From Actinomycetospora endophytica (lineage in GTDB: Bacteria; Actinomycetota; Actinomycetes; Mycobacteriales; Pseudonocardiaceae), in assembly GCF_021026375.1 (NCBI RefSeq), contig NZ_JAJNDB010000010.1, positions 124,001 through 188,000 on the forward strand: a DNA stretch of 64,000 nucleotides. The letters are read 5' to 3'. Below are positions 22,150 to 36,314 of this stretch, piece by piece. Made by a program: the position numbers and the translations under genes. The notes under the pieces are model-generated. The model did not search any database, was not told the origin of the DNA, and worked only from the letters and a program-made list of their open reading frames with translations. Numbering within the stretch: the stretch's first letter is position 1; each line of letters opens with the position of its first letter.

Positions 22150-22189
22150 GTGAGCACTCCTTGACGCTATAGCGTCAAGGAGTGCTCAC
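22150..22189. terminator. Perfect 40-base palindrome, bidirectional terminator
   Basis: Arms 22150-22169 and 22170-22189 are exact reverse complements (GTGAGCACTCCTTGACGCTA and its complement) with no spacer. It lies between convergent genes ending at 22134 and 22186 and overlaps the last bases of the monooxygenase gene. No T-run follows, as is common for actinobacterial terminators. Confidence 0.8.
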
Positions 22190-23553
22190 GAGCGTCGGAA
22201 CGACGCACCTCGGTGCTCGTCCGGCAGCCGGTCCCCGCGGCCGAAGAGCTTCTGGCGCAGCGTCCCCGGCTCGTACGACGTCGGGTACACCCCACGACGC
22301 TGCAGTTCCGGCACCAGGTGCTCGACGACGTCCGCGAACGAGCCCGGGGTGATCGCGTACGGCAGGTTGAACCCGTCGACGTCGGTCTCCTCCACCCACG
22401 ACTGCAGCTCGTCGGCCACCTCGGACGGCGACCCGACCACCCGCGGCCCCATCCCGCCGATCCCGCCCCACCGGGCGATGTCGCGCACCGTCCACTCCTT
22501 GCCCGACGGGTCGGCCTGCTGGAACGACGCGACCGCGGACTGGATGGCGTTGGACTCGACGTCGCCGATGGGATCGTCGAGGTCGTAACGGGACAGGTCG
22601 ACGCCCATCCAGCCGGACATGAACACCAGCGCGCCCTCGTCGCTGGAGTACGAGGCCAGCTCCTCGTGCTTGGCGTGCGCCGCCTCCGAGGTCTCGTCGG
22701 TGATCACGGTCAGCATCGTGTAGATCCGCGCGCTGTAGGAGTCGCGGCCGGCGTCGGCGAGCCCCTTGCGGATGTCGGCGACGGTCTGCCGCAGTACCTC
22801 CTTCGTCGGTGCGCCGGTGAAGATCGCCTCGGCGTTCTCGGCGGCGAACCGCTGGCCCCGGGGTGACGCGCCCGCCTGGTAGATCACCGGGGTCCGCTGC
22901 GGCGACGGCTCGGACAGGTGCACCCCGTCGACGTCGAAGAACCGCCCGTGGTGGTGGATCTGGTGGACCTTCTCCGGGTCGGTGAACACCCCGCGCTCCG
23001 GGTCCCGGACGACCGCGTCGTCCTCCCACGAGCCCTCCCACAGCTGGTAGAGCACCTCGAGGTACTCGTCGGCGTGGTCGTAGCGCTGGTCGTGCGGCAT
23101 CTGGTCGGCCTCGCCCATCGCCCGCGCGGCCGCGGGCAGGTAGCCGGTGACGACGTTCCAGCCGAATCGTCCGCCGGTGAGGTGGTCGAGCGTCGAGGCC
23201 CGGCGGGAGAACGGGTACGGGTGCTCGAACCCGGTCGCCGCTGTCACCCCGAACCCGAGGTGCTCGGTCACCGCGGCCATCGCCGAGACCAGCATCATCG
23301 GGTCGTTCACCGGGATCTGCGCGCCCTGCCGCACCGCCGCCGTCGCGTCCGCGCCGTACACGTCGTAGGTGCCGAGCACGTCCGCGACGAAGATCCCGTC
23401 GAAGACGCCGCGCTCGAGCAGTTGCGCGAGGTCGGTCCAGTACCGGACGTGCCGGTAGTCGGGCGACCGGTCGTCGGGGTGGCGCCACAGCCCCGGGGAC
23501 TGGTGGGCGACGCAGTTCATGTCGAAGGCGTTGAAGCGGATGCGACGGGGCAC
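22186..23553 (-). CDS. LLM-class flavin monooxygenase, DszA/NtaA/SnaA (DmoA) family
   Basis: About 455 aa, the long form of luciferase-like monooxygenase that includes dibenzothiophene-sulfone, nitrilotriacetate and dimethyl-sulfide monooxygenases. Typical segments: IRFNAFDMN at the start, SRRASTLDHLTGGRFGWNVVTGY, QRYDHADEYLEVLYQLWEGSW, and VIYQAGASPRGQRFAAENAEAIF. GTG at 23553 chosen because the homology-like part begins there; the frame is open to 23589. It has its own unit, separated by a hairpin from the sulfur operon that ends at 23689. By context a DmoA-like role (dimethyl sulfide to methanethiol) is attractive but unproven; a reductase partner is not adjacent. Confidence 0.88.
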   Translation of the reverse strand: MPRRIRFNAFDMNCVAHQSPGLWRHPDDRSPDYRHVRYWTDLAQLLERGVFDGIFVADVLGTYDVYGADATAAVRQGAQIPVNDPMMLVSAMAAVTEHLGFGVTAATGFEHPYPFSRRASTLDHLTGGRFGWNVVTGYLPAAARAMGEADQMPHDQRYDHADEYLEVLYQLWEGSWEDDAVVRDPERGVFTDPEKVHQIHHHGRFFDVDGVHLSEPSPQRTPVIYQAGASPRGQRFAAENAEAIFTGAPTKEVLRQTVADIRKGLADAGRDSYSARIYTMLTVITDETSEAAHAKHEELASYSSDEGALVFMSGWMGVDLSRYDLDDPIGDVESNAIQSAVASFQQADPSGKEWTVRDIARWGGIGGMGPRVVGSPSEVADELQSWVEETDVDGFNLPYAITPGSFADVVEHLVPELQRRGVYPTSYEPGTLRQKLFGRGDRLPDEHRGASFRRS

Positions 23554-23629
23554 GTCACCGAGCCCAGCAGCGTGCTCCGGACCCGGCAACGCGACGACAC
23601 CTTCCGGTGGCCGTGGTCACCCCGTTCGT

Positions 23630-23693
23630 CCTGACGGACCTGTGCGTGCGTTTCCGTGTCGGAGCACGGAAACGCACGCACATGGCCGTCAGG
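23630..23693. terminator. Strong stem-loop, terminator of the sulfur operon
   Basis: An 18-base-pair perfect stem (TGTGCGTGCGTTTCCGTG at 23641-23658 with its complement at 23665-23682) around a 6-base loop. It is flanked by a second pairing CCTGACGG (23630-23637) with CCGTCAGG (23686-23693). It overlaps the stop codon of the aminotransferase gene, the last gene of the minus-strand operon. Confidence 0.85.
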
Positions 23694-25047
23694 CCGAAGG
23701 AACCCAGCACTCCTCCGCGGGCGCCGCGCGGTAGCTCAGCGTCGGTCCGTCGGCCACCAGCGCGCGGAGCCCGGTGACGAGCCGGTCGATGTCGTCGACG
23801 GTGTTCTGCAGCCCGAGGCTGGCGCGCACCACGCCGTAGCTCGCGAGCCGGTCGCCGCCGGCCATCGCGGCCTCCACCCGGGCCTGCTCGGCGTCGTCGG
23901 CACCCACCCAGCGGCGCACCAGCCGGTGGTTGCAGATCGTCCCGGCGCGGACCTCGACGCCGTGCTCGGCCTCGAGCGCGGACGCGACCAGCGCGTGGTG
24001 CAGCCCCGCGACCCGGAACGGCACCGCGCCAATCCGGTCCTCGACGCGGTAGCGCTGCGGATCCACGGTCAGCGTCACGCCGTCGACGGCCTCCAGCCGG
24101 TCCACGAGCACCTCGGTCAACGCCCGCTCGTGGGCCTCGATCGTGCCCCACCCGGCGTCGAGGATCGCCGACACCGCGGCACCGAGCGCGACGATGCCCG
24201 TGGCGTTCCACGTACCGGTCTGGTGCCGCTCGGCCGGCGGCGCCCAGAGCACCGAACCATCGGCGCCCAGCATGTCGATCGAGCCGCCGCCGGGGTCGAC
24301 CGGCGCCCGGTCGAGCACCGAGCGCGGCAGCGAGAGCACGCCGAGGCCGAACGGCGCGTAGACCTTGTGCGCCGAGAACGCGAGGACGTCCACCCCGCTC
24401 GCCGCCATGTCGATGCGCCGGTGCGGCGCGAGCTGGGCGGCGTCGACGAACAGCAGCGCCCCGGCGTCGTGGGTCAGGCTCGCGAGGGTGGCGACGTCGG
24501 GCCGGTACCCGGTGAGGTTGGACGCCCCGGTCACCGCGACCAGGCGCACCCGGCCGCGAAGACCGTCCAGCACCTCCGCGAGGTGGCCCAGATCGAGCGC
24601 GCCCTCGTCGTCGGCCCGCACCTCGACGACCTGCGCGGCGCTCTGGTGGCGCCAGGGCAGGTTGTTGCTGGTGTGCTCGATCTCGGAGGTCACGACGACG
24701 TCGTCCGGCCCGAGGTCGAGCAGCCGCGCGAGCTGGTTGATCGCCGAGCTGGTGTTCGTGGTGTAGAGCAGCGTGTTCTCCGGCGGCTGGCCGAGGAAGC
24801 GCTCGATGGCCTCGATCGCGTACTCGACCGCCTCGACGGTGGCGCGCGCCCGCGGTCCGGAGCCGCGGTGCAGGGCTCCGTACTGCCCGAGCATCCCGAC
24901 GACGGCGTCGACGACGGTGGCCAGCGGCGGTGTGGTGGCGGCGTTGTTCAGCGCCGCGACCGGGACGTGGCGTCCGTCGGGCAGGACCACGGGCGATCCG
25001 GTGTCGAACACGCGGGGCAGGGCGGCGGGCGGGGCGGCGATGGTCAT
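23689..25047 (-). CDS. Aminotransferase class V / cysteine-desulfurase-like protein
   Basis: 452 aa PLP enzyme of the NifS/SufS-like class V fold. N-terminal LNNAATTPP, cofactor-binding EIEHTSNN and FVDAAQLAPHR, and PLP lysine in FSAHKVYAPFG. A Cys-bearing C-terminal loop typical of true desulfurases is not clearly present, so it may be a desulfurase, a lyase or an isopenicillin-epimerase-type enzyme. The ATG overlaps the upstream transporter stop (ATGA). Last gene of the operon headed by the leader peptide at 32733. A role in releasing or moving sulfur is inferred from context. Confidence 0.87.
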   Translation of the reverse strand: MTIAAPPAALPRVFDTGSPVVLPDGRHVPVAALNNAATTPPLATVVDAVVGMLGQYGALHRGSGPRARATVEAVEYAIEAIERFLGQPPENTLLYTTNTSSAINQLARLLDLGPDDVVVTSEIEHTSNNLPWRHQSAAQVVEVRADDEGALDLGHLAEVLDGLRGRVRLVAVTGASNLTGYRPDVATLASLTHDAGALLFVDAAQLAPHRRIDMAASGVDVLAFSAHKVYAPFGLGVLSLPRSVLDRAPVDPGGGSIDMLGADGSVLWAPPAERHQTGTWNATGIVALGAAVSAILDAGWGTIEAHERALTEVLVDRLEAVDGVTLTVDPQRYRVEDRIGAVPFRVAGLHHALVASALEAEHGVEVRAGTICNHRLVRRWVGADDAEQARVEAAMAGGDRLASYGVVRASLGLQNTVDDIDRLVTGLRALVADGPTLSYRAAPAEECWVPSA

Positions 25048-26300
25048 GAGCGGTCCTCCGTGACGAGCGCAGGGAGCGGGAGGGTGGGGGCGTCCGGCGC
25101 CACCGGTATGGGCGCCGGAGCGGGGTCGGTGAGGGTGATGCACAGGCCCGCGGCGATCTGGACGAGCGCGGCGACCCCCAGCAGCGCGAGCGGGACGGTC
25201 CAGGCGCCGGTGGCGTCGTGCAGCGGGCCGAGCAGCAGGGGCCCGACGACCGCGAGCGCGTATCCGGTGCCCTGGACCTGGGCGGACAGCCGGGTGGGGT
25301 CGCCGGCGGCGCGGCGGGCGATCAGGGCCATCGCGAGCGGGAAGCCCCAGTGCGCCGTGGTGAGCAGGACCGCCCACACCCAGGCGCCGCCGGCCGGGGC
25401 GAGGGTGAGCCCGGCGAGGCCGAGCACCTGCGCCGCGCCGATCCCGACGACGAGCGCGGTGCCGTGGCCGCGGCGCACCGCGGCCGGCAGCAGCAGCGCG
25501 GCGGGCAGGGCCGGGACCACCGTGACGGCGAGCAGCAGCGACGCGGTGCCCGACGGGATCCCGGCGTCGCGGTAGACCTGCGGCAGCCAGCCCATCACCG
25601 CGAACGCGGCGAGGCTCTGCGCACCGAAGAACACCGCGAGCGCAACCGGCCGGCGCCGGTCGGCGAGGGTGATCGGCCGGGTGACCAGGTCGGCCGTCGA
25701 CGACGGTTCCGTGGCCGACCGGCCCGCGACGGCCCAGCCGGCCAGCGCGGCGACGGCGACGACCGCCCAGACGCCGAGCCCGCCGCGCCACCCCAGCCCG
25801 GACGACGAGCCGACGGGCACGGCCAGCGCCGCGGGCGCGGCGATCCCGGCGAGCACCCCGCCGGAGAAGACGCCGGTCGCCCACGGCGACCGCGGCCCCA
25901 CCAACGGCGGCAGCACGACATTGATCCACGCGACCGCGACCAGCACGACGACGCTCGCCGCGAGCAGCGTCGCGACGGAACCGGCCGCGGCCCGGACCAC
26001 CACCCCGACTGCGATCACCGCGAGCCCGCCGAGAACCACCGCACGCGACCCGACCCGGCGCACCACGACGGGAGCGACGAGGCCCGCCGCGGCGAACACC
26101 GCCAGCGGCATCGCGGTGAGCACCCCGGCGCCCAGGGCGCCGAGCCCGAGGCCACCGAGCGCCGCCGGGGCGCGCAACGACCCGAGCTCGGCGCCCACCG
26201 CCGTGACCGGCGAGCGCAGGCACGCCGCGGTGAGCCCGACGGCGGCCAGCAGGACTCCCGCCCCCGTCGCGGCCGGATCGGCGCGCCGGGAGTCCGTCAT
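25044..26300 (-). CDS. MFS transporter, CynX/NimT type
   Basis: 418 aa with about 12 hydrophobic segments. The opening LTAACLRSPVTAVGAELGSLR matches the CynX/NimT cyanate/nitroimidazole branch (R-P-x-T-x-V pattern). TGATG overlap with the stop of the small exported-protein gene, and ATGA overlap with the aminotransferase gene. The substrate is unknown; being in a sulfur operon, an organosulfur compound or an amino-acid product is plausible. Confidence 0.85.
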   Translation of the reverse strand: MTDSRRADPAATGAGVLLAAVGLTAACLRSPVTAVGAELGSLRAPAALGGLGLGALGAGVLTAMPLAVFAAAGLVAPVVVRRVGSRAVVLGGLAVIAVGVVVRAAAGSVATLLAASVVVLVAVAWINVVLPPLVGPRSPWATGVFSGGVLAGIAAPAALAVPVGSSSGLGWRGGLGVWAVVAVAALAGWAVAGRSATEPSSTADLVTRPITLADRRRPVALAVFFGAQSLAAFAVMGWLPQVYRDAGIPSGTASLLLAVTVVPALPAALLLPAAVRRGHGTALVVGIGAAQVLGLAGLTLAPAGGAWVWAVLLTTAHWGFPLAMALIARRAAGDPTRLSAQVQGTGYALAVVGPLLLGPLHDATGAWTVPLALLGVAALVQIAAGLCITLTDPAPAPIPVAPDAPTLPLPALVTEDRS

Positions 26301-26641
26301 CAGTACCCGCCGGACCCGGAGGAGGGCTGCGACGCGCCCGGCGCGTCCGCGGCACTCTGCGGCGCGTTCTCCGGGGCGCTCTCGCCGGAGGCGTCGGAGA
26401 GCAGCGCCAGCGGGGTGACCGCGGCCCGCAGCGCCTCGGGCACCCCGAGGGTGCCCTCGGGCAGCGGCACGGCGACCCCGTCGAGCAGGTAGGTCTGGGT
26501 GCCGCCGGGCTCCGGGGTCAGGTGGCCGGGGTCGGTGGGCGCGGGAGCGGCAGTCGGGGCGGCCGAGGCCAGGCCGGCGCCGGTGACGGCGAGGACGCCG
26601 GCACCCAGGGTGCCGGCGACGAGCCGGGTGAACGTGTTCAT
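26300..26641 (-). CDS. Small exported protein, unknown function
   Basis: 113 aa. Clear Sec signal peptide (residues 1-28, FTRLVAGTLGAGVLAVTGAGLASA) followed by a Pro/Ala/Thr-rich stretch and a short conserved-looking core, GTQTYLLDGVAVPLPEG. The C-terminus is Ser/Gly-rich. I do not recognise a family. GAAAGGA precedes the ATG by 7 bases. It lies 20 bases downstream of the YeeE gene and overlaps the next gene, so it is an integral part of the operon. Its design parallels the secreted protein at 31871-32362 (LGGVPVEGTL core). Confidence 0.8.
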   Translation of the reverse strand: MNTFTRLVAGTLGAGVLAVTGAGLASAAPTAAPAPTDPGHLTPEPGGTQTYLLDGVAVPLPEGTLGVPEALRAAVTPLALLSDASGESAPENAPQSAADAPGASQPSSGSGGY

Positions 26642-26661
26642 GACAGATCCTTTCAAGAGAT

Positions 26662-27948
26662 TCAGCAACGGGAGTCGGACGGCTTCGGGTTGGACAGTCC
26701 GAACAGGGGGCGCAGCGCGAGACCGGCGACGGTTCCGACGATGGCCATCACGCCCCAGACCCAGCCGTGGAGGCTGAACGAGGCGATGCCCGAGAAGTAG
26801 GCGCCGATGTTGCAGCCACCGGCGAGGCGGGCGCCGTAGCCCATGAGGATGCCGCCGAGCAGCGCGGCGACGATCGTCTTCACGGGTACCGAGCGGTGGA
26901 GCACGAACGCCCCGCCGAGCGCGGAGGCCACCAGCGCGCCGGCCATGATCCCGAAGTCGAGGACCGAGATCCGGTCGGCGAGCACCGACCCGGCCAGCGA
27001 CTTCGCGTTGGCGGGCACCTGGAAGTAGGCCCAGCTCGCCGGGTCGGCCCCGAACGCTCCGAGGATCTTCGAACCCCAGAGACCGAACGCCGAGGTGATG
27101 CCCCAGGGCTGCCCGGAGACCACCAGCACCGCGGCGTTGAGCACGCCGAGCAGCACGGCCCCGACCCACAGCGGCCAGGACCCGCGCAGCACCCGCCACC
27201 ACCCGTGGTCGGTCGGCGGGGCGTCGACCGGCGGGGGGTTGCGACGGCGGCCGACGGCGTAGGTCGCCGCGACGATCGCGCCCATGACCACCAGGGACAG
27301 GGCCAGGGCCCCTGGGTAGCCCAGGATGGCGCCGAGATTGACGACCGGCCCCTGGGGGACGGTCTTCGTCCAGAACGTGAACGTCCCGATCGACGCGAGC
27401 GACCCCAGCACGAACCCGACCAGCGTGTAGACGATCGTCGTCTGGCCGGAGCCGACCGCGAACAGCGTGCCCGACGCGCACGATCCACCGAGCTGCATCC
27501 CGACGCCGAACAGGAACGACCCGACGATCAGCGGGAAGCCGACCGGGCCCAGCTGGGGGCTGGCCGTGCCGGTCAGGCTCGCCCCGGTGGACAGGATGAT
27601 CGCGAACAGCACGGTGGCGACCGCGAGCATGAGCATGTGGGCGCGCAGCGCGGCGCCCTGCCCGACGGCGACCAGCTGGCGCCACGCCCCGGTGAACCCG
27701 AACCGGGAGTGGAACAGCGTGACGCCCAGCGCCAGGCCGAGCCCGAGGACGGCCGCCATGCGGGGGCCGGCGGTCGCCCACACCCCGGCCGCGAGCGCGA
27801 CCCAGATGACGAGCCCGATCGCGACGACGAGCCGGTTGGTCGGCGGGGCCTCGGGCGCTCGGGTGAACGAGGGCTCGGCTTCATGGCCGGGGCCGCCGAG
27901 CAGACGGCGTGGCCAGGTGAAGCCCGCCGGAGCGGGAACGGTGTTCAT
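26662..27948 (-). CDS. YeeE/YedE-family sulfur (thiosulfate-type) transporter
   Basis: 428 aa, about 9-10 TM segments in two repeated halves. Each half has the family Cys motif: GGSCASGTL in the first and GGCNIGAYFSG in the second. In characterised relatives (YeeE/TsuA) these cysteines relay thiosulfate across the membrane. The ATG at 27948 is chosen because GTGGAGG lies 5-11 bases upstream; the frame is open further but without a ribosome site. No TusA-like partner is adjacent. In this operon it would import or export a reduced sulfur species made by the methanethiol-oxidase-like protein. Confidence 0.9.
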   Translation of the reverse strand: MNTVPAPAGFTWPRRLLGGPGHEAEPSFTRAPEAPPTNRLVVAIGLVIWVALAAGVWATAGPRMAAVLGLGLALGVTLFHSRFGFTGAWRQLVAVGQGAALRAHMLMLAVATVLFAIILSTGASLTGTASPQLGPVGFPLIVGSFLFGVGMQLGGSCASGTLFAVGSGQTTIVYTLVGFVLGSLASIGTFTFWTKTVPQGPVVNLGAILGYPGALALSLVVMGAIVAATYAVGRRRNPPPVDAPPTDHGWWRVLRGSWPLWVGAVLLGVLNAAVLVVSGQPWGITSAFGLWGSKILGAFGADPASWAYFQVPANAKSLAGSVLADRISVLDFGIMAGALVASALGGAFVLHRSVPVKTIVAALLGGILMGYGARLAGGCNIGAYFSGIASFSLHGWVWGVMAIVGTVAGLALRPLFGLSNPKPSDSRC

Positions 27949-27985
27949 GGCACCTCCACAGGGGCGGTGGGAGAGGACTGAGGAA

Positions 27986-30028
27986 TCACGACAGCGGCCC
28001 CGAGAGCGGCACGATCCCGCCGCCGGGGAACCACGCCCCGGCCCGGTCACCGCCCGACATGCCGGGCATGCCCGGCATGACGTCGATCGCCGCGGCCGCG
28101 TAGAGCCGGTTCGGCCCGTCAGGCAGCCCGTGTGCGTGCGCCCAGGCCAGGTAGCCCGCGTACGACGGGGCGGCGTCCCCGGTGATCGTGGTGAGCAGAG
28201 CGGCGTACCCGCGCGGGGTCGCGTCCTGCGGGGTGAACGACAGCGGGAACATCGTCGACGAGCCCGCCGAGAGCACCCCCGGTGTGAGCAGCCAGGGCGC
28301 CAGGAACTGGCCCCCGGCGAACGTCGGCGCGCGCGTGGCGGCCGCCGTGACGTCGGTCAGCGTCGCGTGCGCGGACTCCCACCCGGACAGCACGAGCAGC
28401 CCGTCCTCGGGGTGCGGGGCATCCGAGATCGCCAGCCCGACCCGCGCCGCGGTGTCCCGGACGGCGGCGACGGCGGCCCGCGAGCGCGCCGAGTCGTCAC
28501 CGACCAGGTACAGCGAGCGCAGCCCGCGGGAGTGCAGGTCGCTGACCGCCGCGGTGACGGTGCGGGCGTCGGCCGGGGACAGCGCCGACGAGGGGCACGC
28601 GACCCCGGATCCGCCGCCGAGCAGGTCACCGAACTGGGCGTCCGCGCACTCCGGCCCGTCCGGACCGGCGAGCGTGGCGCCGTCGGCGGCCGACGACCCC
28701 GTCGCCACCGGGACCGTCGCGGAGCCCTGCGGCCCGGTGAGCGTGAGCTCGTCGGAGCCGGCCGGGACGTCGACGACGGCCCAGCGCCCGGGGGCACCAG
28801 CCCGTGTCCCGAACAGCACCGGGGTGCCGCCGGCCGAGACGGTGTAGCGGCTCAGGTCGGGCGGGGGCGGGGTGGACATGCCACCCATGCCGCCCATGTC
28901 CATGCCGCCCATGTCCATGCCCGACGAGGCGTGCGCCGGGTCCGGGTCGGAGCCGTCGGAGAGCCGGACCAGGGTCCGGCCGCCCGCGGTCGGCGCGACC
29001 AGCACGGCCTCCCGCTCGGTCCCGAGGGTGACCGGACGCAGCAGCGCGCGGCCTCCCTGCGGTCCCTGGGGTGCGCCGGGCAGCGCGCCGAGCAGCGCAA
29101 CACCGCCCAGCGCGACGACGAGTGCCCCCGCCGACCACCGGGCGAGCTCGTGCCACTGCCGGGCCCGGCGGGTCACCGTGTCGTCGTCGGCGGTGGGCGA
29201 GGTCCGCAGCGACGGGGCGAGCAGCGCCGCCGCCACGAGGGGCAGCGCCACGAGCGCCAGCGCGACGATCCCGCGCACCGAGCGCAGCAGATCGACGGGC
29301 GCCGCGCCGTCGATGGCGAGGACCGCCACCCCGACACCGGCGCCGACGAGCGACGCGGCGGCCCCCAGCACCGTGGCCCGGCGCGCGGCGACCGCGTCGT
29401 CGGACCGCACCGCGGCGACCGCGGCCGCGCCGAGCGCCACGGTGAGGACCACCGTGACGAGCAGCTCGACCACGGCCGCGGGCCCCCAACGCACCACGGC
29501 CACCTCGAGGGCGACCGTCGCGGCGAGCAGCACGGCCGCGGCGGACGCGGTCCGCCGCGGGAGCGCCGCCACGCCGACGACCAGGAGCACGTGACCCGCG
29601 ACGGCCGGCCACCCGGCGTCGCCGAGGACTCCGGCGACGACGACGGCGGCACCCGCGACGACCGCGGCCCCCCGGAGAGCCGCGGTCGCTGAGTTGGCGC
29701 CGGGCCCCATCACCCCGCGCGCCAGCCCCAGTCCAGCGGCGAGGGAGCTCGCGACGACGAGCACGATCCGCACCACGACGGAGGCCGGGGAGACCTCCGG
29801 TGCGATGAACGAGAGCAGTGCGGGGACGGCGTCGGGTGTCTCGGTGACACCGGTGGTGATCAGCACGACGAGGCCGATCACGGTCGCGAGCGCCAGGGCG
29901 CCCGCGATCAGCAGGGCTCCGCGGCGGCCGGCCGGGGGGCCGGCCCACCCGGACCCGTCTGACGACGGGTCCGGGTGGGTCGACGCCTTCGGCGGGGGCG
30001 CCGCGGTGGTGCTACTTGACGTCACCAT
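27986..30028 (-). CDS. Polytopic membrane protein with Met-rich loop and extracytoplasmic domain
   Basis: 680 aa, no family recognised with confidence. Residues about 38-270 contain 7-8 hydrophobic segments, and 300-318 another. Then comes an exported domain with a Met-rich run (MDMGGMDMGGMGGM, 371-384), a Cys pair around 460-480, and a stretch with a periplasmic-binding-like alternation (SLYLVGDDSARSRAAVAAVRD). It ends with a second Met cluster, MPGMPGMSGG. Met-rich loops of this kind bind copper(I) in known copper proteins. Its ATG lies 17 bases inside the end of the methanethiol-oxidase-like gene, so the two are coupled. Best guess: copper loading or membrane anchoring of that enzyme. Confidence 0.8.
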   Translation of the reverse strand: MVTSSSTTAAPPPKASTHPDPSSDGSGWAGPPAGRRGALLIAGALALATVIGLVVLITTGVTETPDAVPALLSFIAPEVSPASVVVRIVLVVASSLAAGLGLARGVMGPGANSATAALRGAAVVAGAAVVVAGVLGDAGWPAVAGHVLLVVGVAALPRRTASAAAVLLAATVALEVAVVRWGPAAVVELLVTVVLTVALGAAAVAAVRSDDAVAARRATVLGAAASLVGAGVGVAVLAIDGAAPVDLLRSVRGIVALALVALPLVAAALLAPSLRTSPTADDDTVTRRARQWHELARWSAGALVVALGGVALLGALPGAPQGPQGGRALLRPVTLGTEREAVLVAPTAGGRTLVRLSDGSDPDPAHASSGMDMGGMDMGGMGGMSTPPPPDLSRYTVSAGGTPVLFGTRAGAPGRWAVVDVPAGSDELTLTGPQGSATVPVATGSSAADGATLAGPDGPECADAQFGDLLGGGSGVACPSSALSPADARTVTAAVSDLHSRGLRSLYLVGDDSARSRAAVAAVRDTAARVGLAISDAPHPEDGLLVLSGWESAHATLTDVTAAATRAPTFAGGQFLAPWLLTPGVLSAGSSTMFPLSFTPQDATPRGYAALLTTITGDAAPSYAGYLAWAHAHGLPDGPNRLYAAAAIDVMPGMPGMSGGDRAGAWFPGGGIVPLSGPLS

Positions 30029-31874
30029 CGGCGGTCACGAACAGCTGGGAGTGCGGCTTCGCGTTGCCGAACGGGCCGTGCGGCCAGTCGGCGCGGTTGA
30101 AGTCGACACACGGCTGGCCGGTGTTCTCGTCCTTGAAGGCGGTGTCGAGAGTCATCTTGCCGCCCTTGCCGATGTCCTCCATGCAGACGCGGTGGTCGCC
30201 GTCGAGGCCGGTCCGGGCGACGAAGTAGTTCGCCGTGGACAGCCGGTCGGGCTGGGTCGTCTGGTGGTAGAAGCCGTCCTGGCCGAGCGCGAGGTTGTCC
30301 AGCGCGCCCCAGTGCGGGCCACCGGCCTTCTCGTCACCATTGATCGGCAGCACGCTCTTCTCGCTCGGGCAGCCCGGACCGGGGTTGGTCTCCTGCGCCG
30401 GGGTGGTGACCGAGCACGTCGTGGCGGTCCCGTCACCGACGAGCTTGGAGATGTCGAGCGAGATCACGCCGCCCGCGGTCCCCTTGTCGTCCTTGCCCAG
30501 TGCACCGGGCTGGCGACCCATGACCGCGTGGTAGAGCGTCGTGTCGTCGGGGCTGGTCTGCAGCCAGCCACCGTTGAGCCCGGCACCCTGGTCGGCCTTG
30601 GGGTCGAGCTTCTTGACCAGCGCGGTGAGGTCGTAGACCTCACGCCACTGCGGGTCCTTGGCGGTGATGTCGGGCGTGTAGTAGATCGCGCCGCCCTGCA
30701 TCGACATCGTGAACGCGCCCTTGTGGCCGGGCTGGTTGGTGACCGTGGTCTCCATCATCGCCCGGTTCTCGTTGTGCAGCGGGTCCGCCGCACTCGAGCG
30801 CGGCCCGGTCGGCATGTACTTCACCGACTTGACCTTCGGGTGGTCCGGATCCGAGATGTCCCAGGTCCGCAGCGTGGTGCGCCGCAGGTTCGGCGACGGC
30901 GCCTTCACCGGGTCCAGGATGATGTCCCGCGGCTCGGCGTAGTCACTGGTGACCATCGTCTTGAGGTCCTCGCGGACCTGGATGCCGTGCGGGTTCGCGC
31001 ACGTCGGCGTCGACAGCGCCGGCAGGTCGAGGCACTGCTTCGGGTCCTCCGGCGTGGTGGTCGCCGCCGGCGCCTCGTTGATCAGCTTGCCGTTCGGGTC
31101 GAACTTCACGACCTCACCCGGAGACCCGGCGAACCCGTTGCCGGAGCGGACCTCCCCGCCGGTGTAGCGGCACGGGCCCGGAGCGACCGGGCCGCCCATG
31201 TAGGTGCCGTAGGCGCTGCCGTCCTTGTTGGTCCAGTAGGCGTCGGGCACCGAGCCGCACTTGGTCTGGGTCGGCAGGCTGATGCCCTTGAGTCCGACGT
31301 TCGGCAGCTTCGAGACGTCGAACATGTAGGTCACCGCGGAGAACAGGCCACCGGCGAAGACGGTGTTGCCCTTGTGCCACTCGTACTGCATGTGGTGCGG
31401 CTCGTTCTCCACCAGCGGTCCGACGGTCGCGGTGTTGACGACCTTGCCGTACCCGGGCGAGCCCTTCGTGGCGTCGATGACGGCCAGGAAGTCCGGACCC
31501 GGGGCGGCGTTGCGCACCGTGTCCAGCGGCTTGGCCAGCGACCCCGGCAGCTTCTTCACCTGCGGGACCGCGGTGTCGGCGGCGTTCTCGTCGCCGGCCC
31601 AGACCACCAGGTACTCGGGCCGCTTCCCCACCCCCTGCGCCTGGGCGGTCGACTCCTCGACGGCACCCGGGACGACGTGGTTCTCGACCCAGTAGTCCTT
31701 GCCGTCCGAGCCCTTGATCGTCTGGCGCTGCGGCACGATGTCGGCCTGGGCCGAGAGCGCCGTCGGGATCACGATCCCCCCGGCGATCACCGCGAGGGCG
31801 GCGACGATCGTCGCGACCTTCGCCCGGAGCGAGAGCCGGTCCAGCAGCCGGCGGTGCCGACCGCCGCCGCTCAT
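30012..31874 (-). CDS. Exported SBP56-family protein (methanethiol-oxidase-like)
   Basis: 620 aa. A single hydrophobic segment (19-40) ending at SAQAD marks Sec export or a membrane anchor. The mature part has the SBP56/selenium-binding motifs PHHMQY (159-164), CANPHGIQ (292-299), SDYAEPRD (310-317) and GGPHWGALD (518-526), in a likely seven-bladed propeller. Bacterial SBP56 proteins (MtoX) are copper-dependent methanethiol oxidases giving H2S, formaldehyde and H2O2. It is longer than the typical 430-470 aa, with several inserts containing extra cysteines. ATGA overlap with the upstream secreted-protein gene. Context (copper-like membrane partner, sulfur transporter, sulfur leader peptide) supports the activity; substrate remains inference. 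Confidence 0.85.
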   Translation of the reverse strand: MSGGGRHRRLLDRLSLRAKVATIVAALAVIAGGIVIPTALSAQADIVPQRQTIKGSDGKDYWVENHVVPGAVEESTAQAQGVGKRPEYLVVWAGDENAADTAVPQVKKLPGSLAKPLDTVRNAAPGPDFLAVIDATKGSPGYGKVVNTATVGPLVENEPHHMQYEWHKGNTVFAGGLFSAVTYMFDVSKLPNVGLKGISLPTQTKCGSVPDAYWTNKDGSAYGTYMGGPVAPGPCRYTGGEVRSGNGFAGSPGEVVKFDPNGKLINEAPAATTTPEDPKQCLDLPALSTPTCANPHGIQVREDLKTMVTSDYAEPRDIILDPVKAPSPNLRRTTLRTWDISDPDHPKVKSVKYMPTGPRSSAADPLHNENRAMMETTVTNQPGHKGAFTMSMQGGAIYYTPDITAKDPQWREVYDLTALVKKLDPKADQGAGLNGGWLQTSPDDTTLYHAVMGRQPGALGKDDKGTAGGVISLDISKLVGDGTATTCSVTTPAQETNPGPGCPSEKSVLPINGDEKAGGPHWGALDNLALGQDGFYHQTTQPDRLSTANYFVARTGLDGDHRVCMEDIGKGGKMTLDTAFKDENTGQPCVDFNRADWPHGPFGNAKPHSQLFVTADGDVK

Positions 31875-32362
31875 GCGTAGTCCTTGGGACCCGAGCCCGG
31901 CACGATCGCGTCGGCGCCGGTGACGGCGTTCAGCGTGCCCTCCACGGGCACGCCGCCGAGCACGGTCTCCGGCTTCGCGCCGTACTGCGGGCCCGTCGGC
32001 GCGGGCGTCGGGTCGTCCGGCGTGGTGGCCCCGTCACTGCCCAGCAGGGCCGAGGAGGACAGCGCGGTACCGACGACGGAGGTCACCGGGTCGGCGCCCA
32101 GCGCCCCGGCACCGGGCAGCGCCTGGACCTTCGGGATCTCCGGCAGCTGCGGCAGTCCGAGACCGGACCGGCCGCCGGACTGGGCGGCCCCGGGCTGGGC
32201 GGCCCCGGGCTGGGCGGCGCCGGGCTGGGCGGCGCCGGACGCGGGGGTGTCGACGGTGGCCGCCGACGCGAGGCCGGGTGCGACGGCGAGCGCGGCGATC
32301 GAGCCGGCCAGGCCGCCGAGAACGGCGCGCGCACGGCGCGCCGCTGGTGTCGAGGTGGACAC
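31871..32362 (-). CDS. Small secreted protein with AAQPG repeats
   Basis: 163 aa. N-terminal signal peptide (Arg-rich start, hydrophobic LGGLAGSIAALAVAPGLASAA), then four AAQPG-type units, then a Leu/Pro region (LGLPQLPEIPKVQALPG) and a C-terminal YGAKPETVLGGVPVEGTL. Unrecognised family. GTG at 32362 chosen: GAGAGG lies 8-13 bases upstream; an ATG at 32419 would lack a signal peptide at the right place. First gene of the sulfur operon, 284 bases downstream of the leader-peptide stop. Confidence 0.78.
   Translation of the reverse strand: MSTSTPAARRARAVLGGLAGSIAALAVAPGLASAATVDTPASGAAQPGAAQPGAAQPGAAQSGGRSGLGLPQLPEIPKVQALPGAGALGADPVTSVVGTALSSSALLGSDGATTPDDPTPAPTGPQYGAKPETVLGGVPVEGTLNAVTGADAIVPGSGPKDYA
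32176..32235. repeat. 15-base tandem repeat, four units
   Basis: Four head-to-tail copies of CGGGCTGGGCGGCCC with one or two changes (32176-32190, 32191-32205, 32206-32220, 32221-32235). On the minus strand they encode the AAQPG units of the secreted protein. Copy number may vary by slippage. Confidence 0.85.
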
Positions 32363-32401
32363 GTGAGGGAACCTCTCTGATCGGGGAACGGGTCGAGCAC
32401 A

Positions 32402-32527
32402 GGTGCTCCTCGACGCCACGCCTGCCAGGGAGGACGTCGAGGAGCACCACGGCCCTCCTCAGGCGGCGCCCCGCACCGCGTCGTCACACGCGGGCGCGGG
32501 GCGCCGCCGCCCCGCCGTGCGGCGGGG
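32402..32527 (-). promoter_or_regulatory. Structured leader of the sulfur operon (candidate attenuator)
   Basis: Three stable hairpins lie between the leader-peptide stop and the first operon gene: GGTGCTCCTCGACG (32402-32415) with 32435-32448; GGCGGCGCCCCGC (32462-32474) with 32496-32508; and CCCCGCCG (32510-32517) with 32520-32527. Together with the Cys-bearing leader ORF they could form an attenuation switch. No T-run follows the gene-proximal hairpin. The rest of the 627-base gap 32363-32989 holds only the leader ORF and presumably the divergent promoters. Confidence 0.5.
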
Positions 32528-32646
32528 CGAAGGAGGAGGGTTCAGAACGGACGGGTTCGTCCGGAGACGGATCACCGGTCGCGCAGGACCGGGCCGTCAG
32601 CGGGCCGCGAGGGCCCGTCGGGTGTCGGCCGGAGAAAGTGGGGAGC

Positions 32647-32733
32647 TCAGCCGGCCGACCCGGCACACAGCGCGCTCGCCTGCAGACGCAGGTCGACGTG
32701 GCGTCGCATCGCGAAGCGCCGGGCGGTGTGCAT
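32647..32733 (-). CDS. Leader peptide of the actinobacterial RRHVDL...C type
   Basis: 28-codon ORF, ATG at 32733, TGA at 32647-32649. It contains RRHVDLRLQASALC near its C-terminal half, with a Cys codon six codons before the stop. Short ORFs with an (R)RRHVDL core and a Cys near the end are a recognised putative leader-peptide family in actinobacteria, found in front of cysteine and sulfur-assimilation genes. It is on the same strand as the seven-gene operon starting at 32362 and about 285 bases upstream, with hairpins between. Inferred role: ribosome stalling at the Cys codon under cysteine shortage alters expression of the operon. Too short to be listed by most gene finders. Confidence 0.8.
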   Translation of the reverse strand: MHTARRFAMRRHVDLRLQASALCAGSAG

Positions 32734-35068: not shown

Positions 35069-35149
35069 GTGGGTGGGGTGCAACCCCTGGTGCGTCGGCG
35101 TCACGTCGACCTGGGCCGGGTGTGGTCCGCGGGCTGTCGTCGTCCCTGA
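35069..35149 (+). CDS. Second RRHVDL...C leader peptide, upstream of SsuD-like gene
   Basis: 26-codon ORF ending in VRRRHVDLGRVWSAGC-RRP and TGA at 35147-35149. Start taken at GTG 35069 (GGAG 4 bases upstream); GTGs at 35078 and 35090 are in frame too. Same core as the leader at 32647-32733: Arg run, HVDL, then a Cys near the end. Only 37 bases separate its stop from the GTG of the SsuD-like gene. That fits translational coupling rather than a long attenuator. Independent recurrence beside another sulfur-type gene strengthens both calls. Confidence 0.8.
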   Translation: MGGVQPLVRRRHVDLGRVWSAGCRRP

Positions 35150-35186: not shown

Positions 35187-36314
35187 GTGCCCGTCGAGTT
35201 CCTCGGGATCGCCGCCACCAACGACGGATCGGAGATCCACCCGCGCTCGGGTGGACCCTTCGACGCCGACTACACCCTGCGCCTCGCCGCCGCCCACGCC
35301 GAGAACGGCTGGGACCGCGTCCTGACCGCGTACTCGTCGGGCAGCCCCGACCCGGCCCAGGCGGCCGCCTACATCGCCGACCACGTCGACGGGCTGCAGC
35401 TGCTCGTCGCGCACCGCCCCAACCTCTCGATCCCGACGTTCGCCGCGAAGACGTTCGCGACGCTGGACCACATGTCGGGCGGGAGGGTCACCGTCCACGT
35501 CATCACGGGCGGCAACGACCACGAGCAGCGCCGCGAGGGCGACACCCTGTCCAAGAACCAGCGCTACGCCCGCACCCGCGAGTACATGCAGATCCTCAAG
35601 CAGGCGTGGACGAGTCCCACGGCGTTCGACTTCGCCGGCGAGCACTACGCGTTCACCGACTTCGTCGCCGACGTCAAACCGCTGCAGCAGCCCCGCATAC
35701 GGCTGTCGTTCGGCGGCTCGTCGGACGCCGCGTACGCAACAGGCGGCGCCGAGGCCGACATCTACGCGCTGTGGGGCGAGCCGCTCGCCGACACCGCCGG
35801 GCAGATCGCGACGGTGCACGCCGCCGCCCGGGCGGCCGGACGCTCGACGATGCCCCGCATCCAGGTCGCGTTCCGGCCCATCCTCGGCGCCACCGAGGAG
35901 GCCGCGTGGGAGAAGGCGTACGCCACGGTCGCGCGGATCGAGGAGCGCACCGAGGGCGGCACGAAGCCGCTCACCAACCGGCACCGCCTCACCGACCCGG
36001 AGAACGCCGGGTCGCAGCGCCTGCTCGCCGTCGCCGAGCGCGGCGAGCGCTTCGACCGGGCGCTCTGGACGGTCACCGCGAGGGCCACCGGGGGCGGAGG
36101 CAACTCGACGGCCCTCGTCGGGACCCCGGAGACCGTCGCCGCCGCCCTGCTCGACTACTGGGATCTCGGCGTCGACATCCTCTCCGCCCGCGGCTACGAC
36201 CTGCTCGCCGACGCCGAGGAGTTCGGCCGGGAGGTCATCCCGATCGTGCGCGAGGAGGTCGCGAAGCGGGAGGCCGAGGGCAGGCCGCGCGGTCTGGACG
36301 CCGTGGCGGCCTGA
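35187..36314 (+). CDS. SsuD/MsuD-like alkanesulfonate monooxygenase (LLM class)
   Basis: 375 aa flavin monooxygenase. Segments HRPNLSIPTFAAKTFATLDHMSGGRVTVHVITGG, LSKNQRYARTREYMQI and RIRLSFGGSSDAAYATGG correspond to the SsuD pattern (VVTGG ... RYE ... FGGSSDAA). SsuD enzymes use FMNH2 and O2 to turn an alkanesulfonate into an aldehyde plus sulfite. GTG at 35187 has AGGAG 14-18 bases upstream and GGAGA 7-11 upstream. No SsuABC transporter or SsuE reductase is adjacent. Likely induced under sulfur or cysteine limitation through the leader peptide. Confidence 0.88.
   Translation: MPVEFLGIAATNDGSEIHPRSGGPFDADYTLRLAAAHAENGWDRVLTAYSSGSPDPAQAAAYIADHVDGLQLLVAHRPNLSIPTFAAKTFATLDHMSGGRVTVHVITGGNDHEQRREGDTLSKNQRYARTREYMQILKQAWTSPTAFDFAGEHYAFTDFVADVKPLQQPRIRLSFGGSSDAAYATGGAEADIYALWGEPLADTAGQIATVHAAARAAGRSTMPRIQVAFRPILGATEEAAWEKAYATVARIEERTEGGTKPLTNRHRLTDPENAGSQRLLAVAERGERFDRALWTVTARATGGGGNSTALVGTPETVAAALLDYWDLGVDILSARGYDLLADAEEFGREVIPIVREEVAKREAEGRPRGLDAVAA

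Follow-up and report, generated by a model that had tools for sequence, protein, structure and literature searches.

Here we describe a locus in a 64,000-nucleotide (nt) stretch of the Actinomycetospora endophytica genome (contig NZ_JAJNDB010000010.1, positions 124,001 to 188,000; hereafter the window), in which seven genes on the minus strand, g1 to g7, follow a short open reading frame (ORF) for a cysteine leader peptide. The conserved core of this locus is the leader together with g2, an exported SBP56-like seven-bladed beta-propeller, and g3, a polytopic membrane protein, while the complete set of seven in this order is confined to the window and one congener. The locus is very probably a sulfur-related module. 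The more specific chain, to which we give an even chance, is that of a sulfur-collecting module of the cell envelope under cysteine-leader control, with a metal-binding propeller, handover to g3 and import through a YeeE/YedE-family transporter. The proposal builds on the gene order, its conservation, the leader and the sulfur genes in whose company such leaders stand, the predicted fold and the residue pattern.

Known sulfur scavenging in actinobacteria is mostly cytoplasmic, with monooxygenases fed by importers. If the proposed chain is right, the sulfur-releasing step would here lie outside the membrane, carried out under cysteine control by a conserved propeller that is exported and has a membrane partner of its own. 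The g2 and g3 protein families, whose members are named in public records only as hypothetical, secreted or selenium-binding, would gain a function. Further, g2 would become a test case for ligand change in a copper propeller, and the leader a handle on the set of operons behind such leaders. A cysteine-leader-controlled system of envelope sulfur scavenging of this kind has probably not been described so far. An earlier sequence-only reading of this DNA knew of no account of the gene set, and we found none in the full-text literature searched, which excluded most subscription papers and supplementary files.

Conservation of the g2/g3 core

Homologous loci were collected with a profile of 19 g2 homologues run against contigs from one genome per species, and the best 80 of 149 places were compared; counts out of 81 include the window. 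By record title these loci belong to Amycolatopsis (31), Saccharopolyspora (16), Pseudonocardia (12), Kutzneria (4), Actinokineospora (3), Nocardioides (3), Fodinicola (1) and others. In 76 of the 80 loci the next gene after g2, read in the same direction, is a g3 homologue, recognised by clustering in 75 (with at most 283 nt between the g2 stop and the start called for g3) and by tblastn in one, L089. In three of the four loci without a g3 call the contig ends 71–675 bases past g2, and one (L077) truly lacks the gene. The distribution of g2 is patchy, with 3/18 genomes of the genus, 10/61 relatives (A. endophytica itself among the 61) and at least 5/396 genomes of a phylum sample, own genome included and three candidates scored per genome. 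For both g2 and g3, the nearest homologues with a named source come from Actinomycetospora.

The remaining genes are less constant. A YeeE-family gene is found downstream of g2 on the same strand in 40/80 loci and on the opposite strand in 5/80; as it is missing or turned round in part of the loci, import by YeeE would be no fixed step of the module. Among the 80 loci, only that of a congener (L011) has all seven genes in the window's order, and L012 carries six of them, without CynX. Homologues of g6 were detected in three loci (L011, 74%; L023, 39%; L024, 38%) and same-strand homologues of g7 in four (L011, 86%; L012, 79%; L023, 67%; L024, 68%); in L023 and L024 both lie several kilobases away and in a different order. 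Five Pseudonocardia loci have g7 relatives at 37–39% on the opposite strand. Hence the seven-gene unit put forward by the sequence-only reading, with co-occurrence as its check, holds for the g2/g3 core and not for the full set.

The cysteine leader

The leader ORF (32647..32733, minus strand) has 28 codons and encodes MHTARRFAMRRHVDLRLQASALCAGSAG, in which the Cys of SALC is written TGT. Its motif recurs on the g2 strand, no more than 1.3 kb upstream of that gene, in 57/80 loci as well as in the window; elsewhere in 3.27 Mb, both strands considered, there are eight matches, four of which resemble leaders of other genes. Across these leaders, 58 in all, synonymous changes affect the codons for H, V, D, L and other residues, the Cys codon excepted, and the peptide therefore appears to be under selection. 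The Cys codon is TGT in 58/58, whereas TGT makes up 12.7% of the Cys codons in long genes of these loci (388 of 3050) and 68/697 in the module genes; the leaders are related sequences, however, and do not count as 58 separate events. The Ser codon likewise varies little (AGC in 55/58). In L043, L047 and L083 the exact position of the conserved Cys codon is taken by a stop codon.

Similar leaders occur elsewhere in the genome. A search with the leader family NF042934, in which 150 of 273 candidates were scored, gave 26 matches at E 10, of which nine have an E value below 5e-4. In control genomes, matches at E 10 appeared in 10/14, none over the cut-off, and at 5e-4 in 0/14, so the weaker matches in the own genome are mostly chance. 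Thirteen matches were read as leaders, namely the nine below 5e-4 and four weaker ones picked by their peptide (L137, L141, L142 and L144); the leader of the window operon is not among the matches of this search. The 13 stand before genes for five luciferase-like monooxygenases, two binding-protein-dependent permeases and one each of a nitrite/sulfite reductase, rhodanese, OsmC protein, acyl-CoA-dehydrogenase-like protein, secreted repeat protein and short hypothetical protein (10 of the 13 proteins were covered by a Pfam scan). By family, 9/13 fit sulfur assimilation or organosulfur use, the luciferase-like and permease families being broad.

Of the 14 leaders of this genome, counting that of the window operon, 13 have TGT as the fixed-place Cys codon, as do all 12 readable leaders from 28 loci of the class (16 were unreadable by the pattern). 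In relatives it is TGT in 8 of 22 readable leaders from 29 loci (7 unreadable), and all 14 TGC cases belong to this genus. By these codon counts, UGU is a strong habit of the leader type, neither a rule nor particular to this operon. In Rhodobacterales, according to the accessible part of one report, UGC dominates in the upstream ORFs (uORFs) of cysS (PMC8632094).

In mycobacteria, cysteine-rich uORFs precede cysA2 and nirA, as stated in the accessible portion of one study (PMC4633059), and excerpts of a second, citing 2020 work, place mycobacterial cysteine genes under such uORF control (PMC13236596). As early as 2005, candidate Cys leaders lacking obvious terminators were reported from actinobacteria (PMC1262725). 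A shortage of charged tRNA-Cys would make ribosomes stall at the leader's one conserved Cys codon and would lead to expression of the genes downstream. Judged from sequence, control of the operon by sulfur or cysteine through the leader is well supported. The sulfur operon behind a cysteine leader that the sequence-only reading proposed is thus upheld, as the leader is kept in sequence and place and related leaders stand mostly before sulfur-type genes.

The exported propeller and its probable membrane partner

The product of g2 (30012..31874, minus strand; 620 amino acids, aa) is predicted to adopt the seven-bladed propeller fold of the Sulfolobus selenium-binding protein 2ece, its best Foldseek match (E 1.4e-14). 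Sequence similarity to the family is remote: the Pfam SBP56 model (PF05694) gives E 0.0028 and 16.9 bits against a cut-off of 34, and the NCBIfam MtoX model (NF052453) matches residues 126–191 with E 8.5e-6 and 24.4 bits against a cut-off of 650. The conserved residues H160, H161, D211, H296, E375, H521 and H608 form a pocket set that is invariant in 19/19 homologues and in two of two distant relatives. The HH pair, the pocket Glu and the C-terminal His are kept, an Asp and two His stand at new places, and the place of the HxxH motif reads D211/W214 (D-x-x-W). The four copper-ligand histidines of MtoX (H89, H90, H140 and H412) are not all present, the HH pair and the C-terminal His being kept in 19/19; here H140 and H412 were equated with HxxH and the last His by reading only, without an aligned MtoX sequence. 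A canonical SBP56 is encoded elsewhere in the genome (L097, C2:53193-54581, E 1.5e-184).

Immediately behind g2, g3 (27986..30028, minus strand; 680 aa) encodes a polytopic membrane protein that has a beta domain, a type-1 periplasmic-binding-like domain and, as an invariant feature, a Cys pair (C461/C478). The binding-like domain has no Foldseek match at E 0.001, and the g3 family as a whole gives only weak DUF6239 matches in Pfam (2/20 members). An internal Met-rich tract of g3 occurs only in the three Actinomycetospora copies. The dedicated copper-type partner inferred by the sequence-only reading is not supported, the tract being confined to the genus and the conserved part being binding-protein-like.

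On the reading we prefer, a metal (probably copper) would sit on the axis of the seven-bladed exported propeller, bound by ligands that are rearranged relative to MtoX and SELENBP1, and the propeller would oxidise or cleave a sulfur compound on the outer side of the membrane. With its binding-protein-like domain, g3 would hold g2 or its ligand at the membrane, and where a YeeE/YedE protein is present, it would import the freed sulfur, as its family suggests. In its strongest form, this would make g2 a new class of extracytoplasmic metal enzyme in the SBP56 superfamily, with ligands redistributed round the propeller axis (HxxH lost, His gained) and a dedicated membrane binding-protein partner in g3, freeing sulfur from a compound outside the cell under a cysteine leader with a rare UGU sensing codon. 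We offer that form tentatively and put it at somewhat under an even chance.

Operon layout, accessory genes and neighbourhood

The seven minus-strand ORFs run in one direction behind the leader ORF and end at a hairpin after g7, all where the sequence-only reading had placed them. Its remark that almost every junction overlaps applies to four of six junctions (g1/g2 4 nt, g2/g3 17 nt, g5/g6 1 nt, g6/g7 4 nt); g4, the YeeE gene, is flanked by gaps of 37 nt (g3/g4) and 20 nt (g4/g5). The terminator-like closing hairpin (23632..23683, minus strand) folds at -47.6 kcal/mol (z -8.4; 0/200 shuffles as good), and no U-run follows it. Between the leader and g1 lies a structured stretch (32395..32540, minus strand) with a two-hairpin element at 32445-32540 (-81.9 kcal/mol, z -7.3) and a further hairpin at 32395-32450 (-36.3 kcal/mol, z -4.9).

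The YeeE/YedE-family transporter g4 (26662..27948, minus strand; 428 aa) scores well inside the Sulf_transp domain family (E 6e-70, 236.7 bits against a cut-off of 27), so that an exported propeller accompanied by a YeeE-family transporter, as first read from the sequence, is borne out. In an alignment of 40 copies, window included (six tblastn hits were outside the set), the equivalent of C91 is present in 39/40 and that of C293 in 40/40, while the place of C22 is held by Gly (SRFGF in 39/40). Two of the three conserved TsuA cysteines are thus found, their correspondence being read from motifs without an aligned TsuA sequence. These two are the TsuA cysteines that are reported to be indispensable (PMC11582611, PMC11073785). 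A YeeD (TusA-like) partner is not among the seven genes; the rest of the genome was not searched for one. YedE models score g4 higher than TsuA models, all below cut-off. All 40 copies end in Cys, mostly as NPKPxDSxC, and because relatives outside the module do likewise, this ending may be the mark of a YedE subfamily.

The small proteins g1 (31871..32362, minus strand, start at 32362; 163 aa, secreted) and g5 (26300..26641, minus strand; 113 aa, exported), like g3, have no family match at E 0.01 in Pfam or NCBIfam, and their homologues are detectable only in L011 and L012 among the 80 loci. Within the range L013-L088, genes up- or downstream of g2 encode small secreted proteins marked by a FAPLGVPVxGL or PGVDLGxLLxP motif, type A in 69/81 loci and type B in 55/81; four that were scanned belong to no Pfam family. 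Hidden Markov models of the two types miss both g1 and g5. By eye only, the C-terminal end of g1, a GGVPVEGTLNAVTGADAIVPG motif, is like that of a small secreted protein in L023, and g5 resembles type B in layout.

Two accessory genes close the operon. The CynX/NimT-type transporter g6 (25044..26300, minus strand; 418 aa), of the major facilitator superfamily, matches TIGR00896 at E 1.5e-58, below cut-off. The SufS-like class V aminotransferase g7 (23689..25047, minus strand; 452 aa) matches Aminotran_5 at E 4e-74 and reaches 232 bits against a cut-off of 475 with the SufS-type cysteine desulfurase model TIGR01979. Its Cys in RAGTIC presumably stands where the desulfurases have their cysteine. 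The closing hairpin is immediately followed by a flavin-dependent (FMN) monooxygenase of the NtaA/DmoA family (22186-23589, minus strand; TIGR03860, 555 bits against 279.7), the broad family to which the dimethyl sulfide monooxygenase DmoA belongs.

A second leader of the same kind (35078..35149, plus strand), VQPLVRRRHVDLGRVWSAGCRRP, lies outside the operon, 2.3 kb from the operon's leader. It scores 34.2 bits with NF042936 (E 1.4e-8, cut-off 45) and 21.2 bits with NF042934 (cut-off 27), and stands before a luciferase-like gene (35187-36314, plus strand) nearest to alkanesulfonate monooxygenase, below cut-off. Seven of the ORFs taken for such leaders fall within about 40 kb at roughly 71–110 kb of contig C1, of which the window is C1:124001-188000, and precede sulfite reductase, monooxygenase, permease, OsmC and other genes. 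This region is a possible sulfur island extending towards the window.

Weighing the readings

Several observations weigh against the proposed chain. At the level of control, the leader motif is absent from 23/81 loci, seven of which have variants of it, four keeping the Cys and three with a stop there, and the window leader reaches only 12.6 bits with NF042934 (cut-off 27) and 9.4 bits with NF042936 (cut-off 45), while being a short ORF with a conserved peptide before sulfur genes. A folding comparison of the loci found no hairpin common to all leaders, and attenuation is for that reason no more than a candidate mechanism. At the level of the core, L077 has g2 without g3, and in genome G241 there is no g2 match, while its g3-like matches are partial and lie on two strands (best E 4e-22). 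YeeE is absent from 35/80 loci, 26 of them with more than 5 kb past g2, besides the five with the gene on the opposite strand. The mechanism leaves the small secreted proteins unexplained, g2 lacks the HxxH residues needed for SELENBP1 activity, and a third distant relative (L109) is without the equivalents of D211 and H296.

Among other readings, the one that survives best makes g2 a non-enzymatic scavenger or chaperone that binds a metal or thiol and passes sulfur or a metal ligand to g3, with uptake and no chemistry. We consider this rather unlikely, though it is the strongest competitor, as the invariant His, Asp and Glu at the metal-holding propeller positions of SBP56 look like a catalytic metal site. 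A further reading takes the core as a module of the cell surface or envelope that reacts to a lack of cysteine or to redox stress and has no part in sulfur acquisition. The frequency of type A and B small secreted proteins, the dispensability of YeeE and the one leader of this genome that precedes a secreted repeat protein agree with it, but leaders of this type are found mainly in front of sulfur-type families and a same-strand YeeE gene lies downstream in half of the loci; we regard it as improbable.

Least probable of all is a true periplasmic methanethiol oxidase, as the sequence-only reading had it, that converts methanethiol with copper to formaldehyde, hydrogen peroxide and sulfide, the sulfur being recovered by YeeE and the aminotransferase: g2 does share the fold, the HH pair, the partial MtoX match and, going by the accessible text on mtoX (PMC5739008), export with MtoX, and a DmoA/NtaA-type gene lies behind the operon, but both family cut-offs are failed by a wide margin, the HxxH motif, whose His exchange abolished SELENBP1 activity according to the available part of PMC10362175, is lost, a canonical SBP56 is present elsewhere in the genome, and the SCO1/SenC and MauG-like genes which the same mtoX text reports beside mtoX did not turn up when the seven genes and two neighbouring ones were scanned with Pfam (a search that did not extend to the rest of the genome). 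We therefore consider this assignment unsupported.

Comparison with known systems

Compared with SBP56, MtoX and SELENBP1, g2 has in common the seven-bladed propeller, the HH pair, the pocket Glu and the C-terminal His, as well as export with MtoX as far as the accessible source tells. It differs in scoring far below the family cut-offs, in the replacement of HxxH by Asp and Trp, in its greater length, and in the extra His 296 and 521, where SBP56 has Asp/Tyr and Gln. Similarly, g3 recalls the type-1 periplasmic-binding proteins LivK and AmiC, but its domain is fused to a polytopic membrane part. With the YeeE/YedE family (TsuA, SoxT, PmpAB and the selenium YedE), g4 shares the common Sulf_transp domain and two of three channel cysteines, whereas its first channel Cys is replaced, a YeeD/TusA-type partner is missing among the seven genes and the protein ends in Cys.

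The leader has the RxHVDL...C core and the placement before sulfur genes of the NCBIfam leader families NF042936 (Ms4527A), NF042933 (Ms5788A) and NF042934, and departs from them in the single Cys of its ASALC core and its score of 12.6 bits against 27. A g2-type operon is not mentioned as a leader target in the accessible portions of the literature on actinobacterial cysteine leaders.

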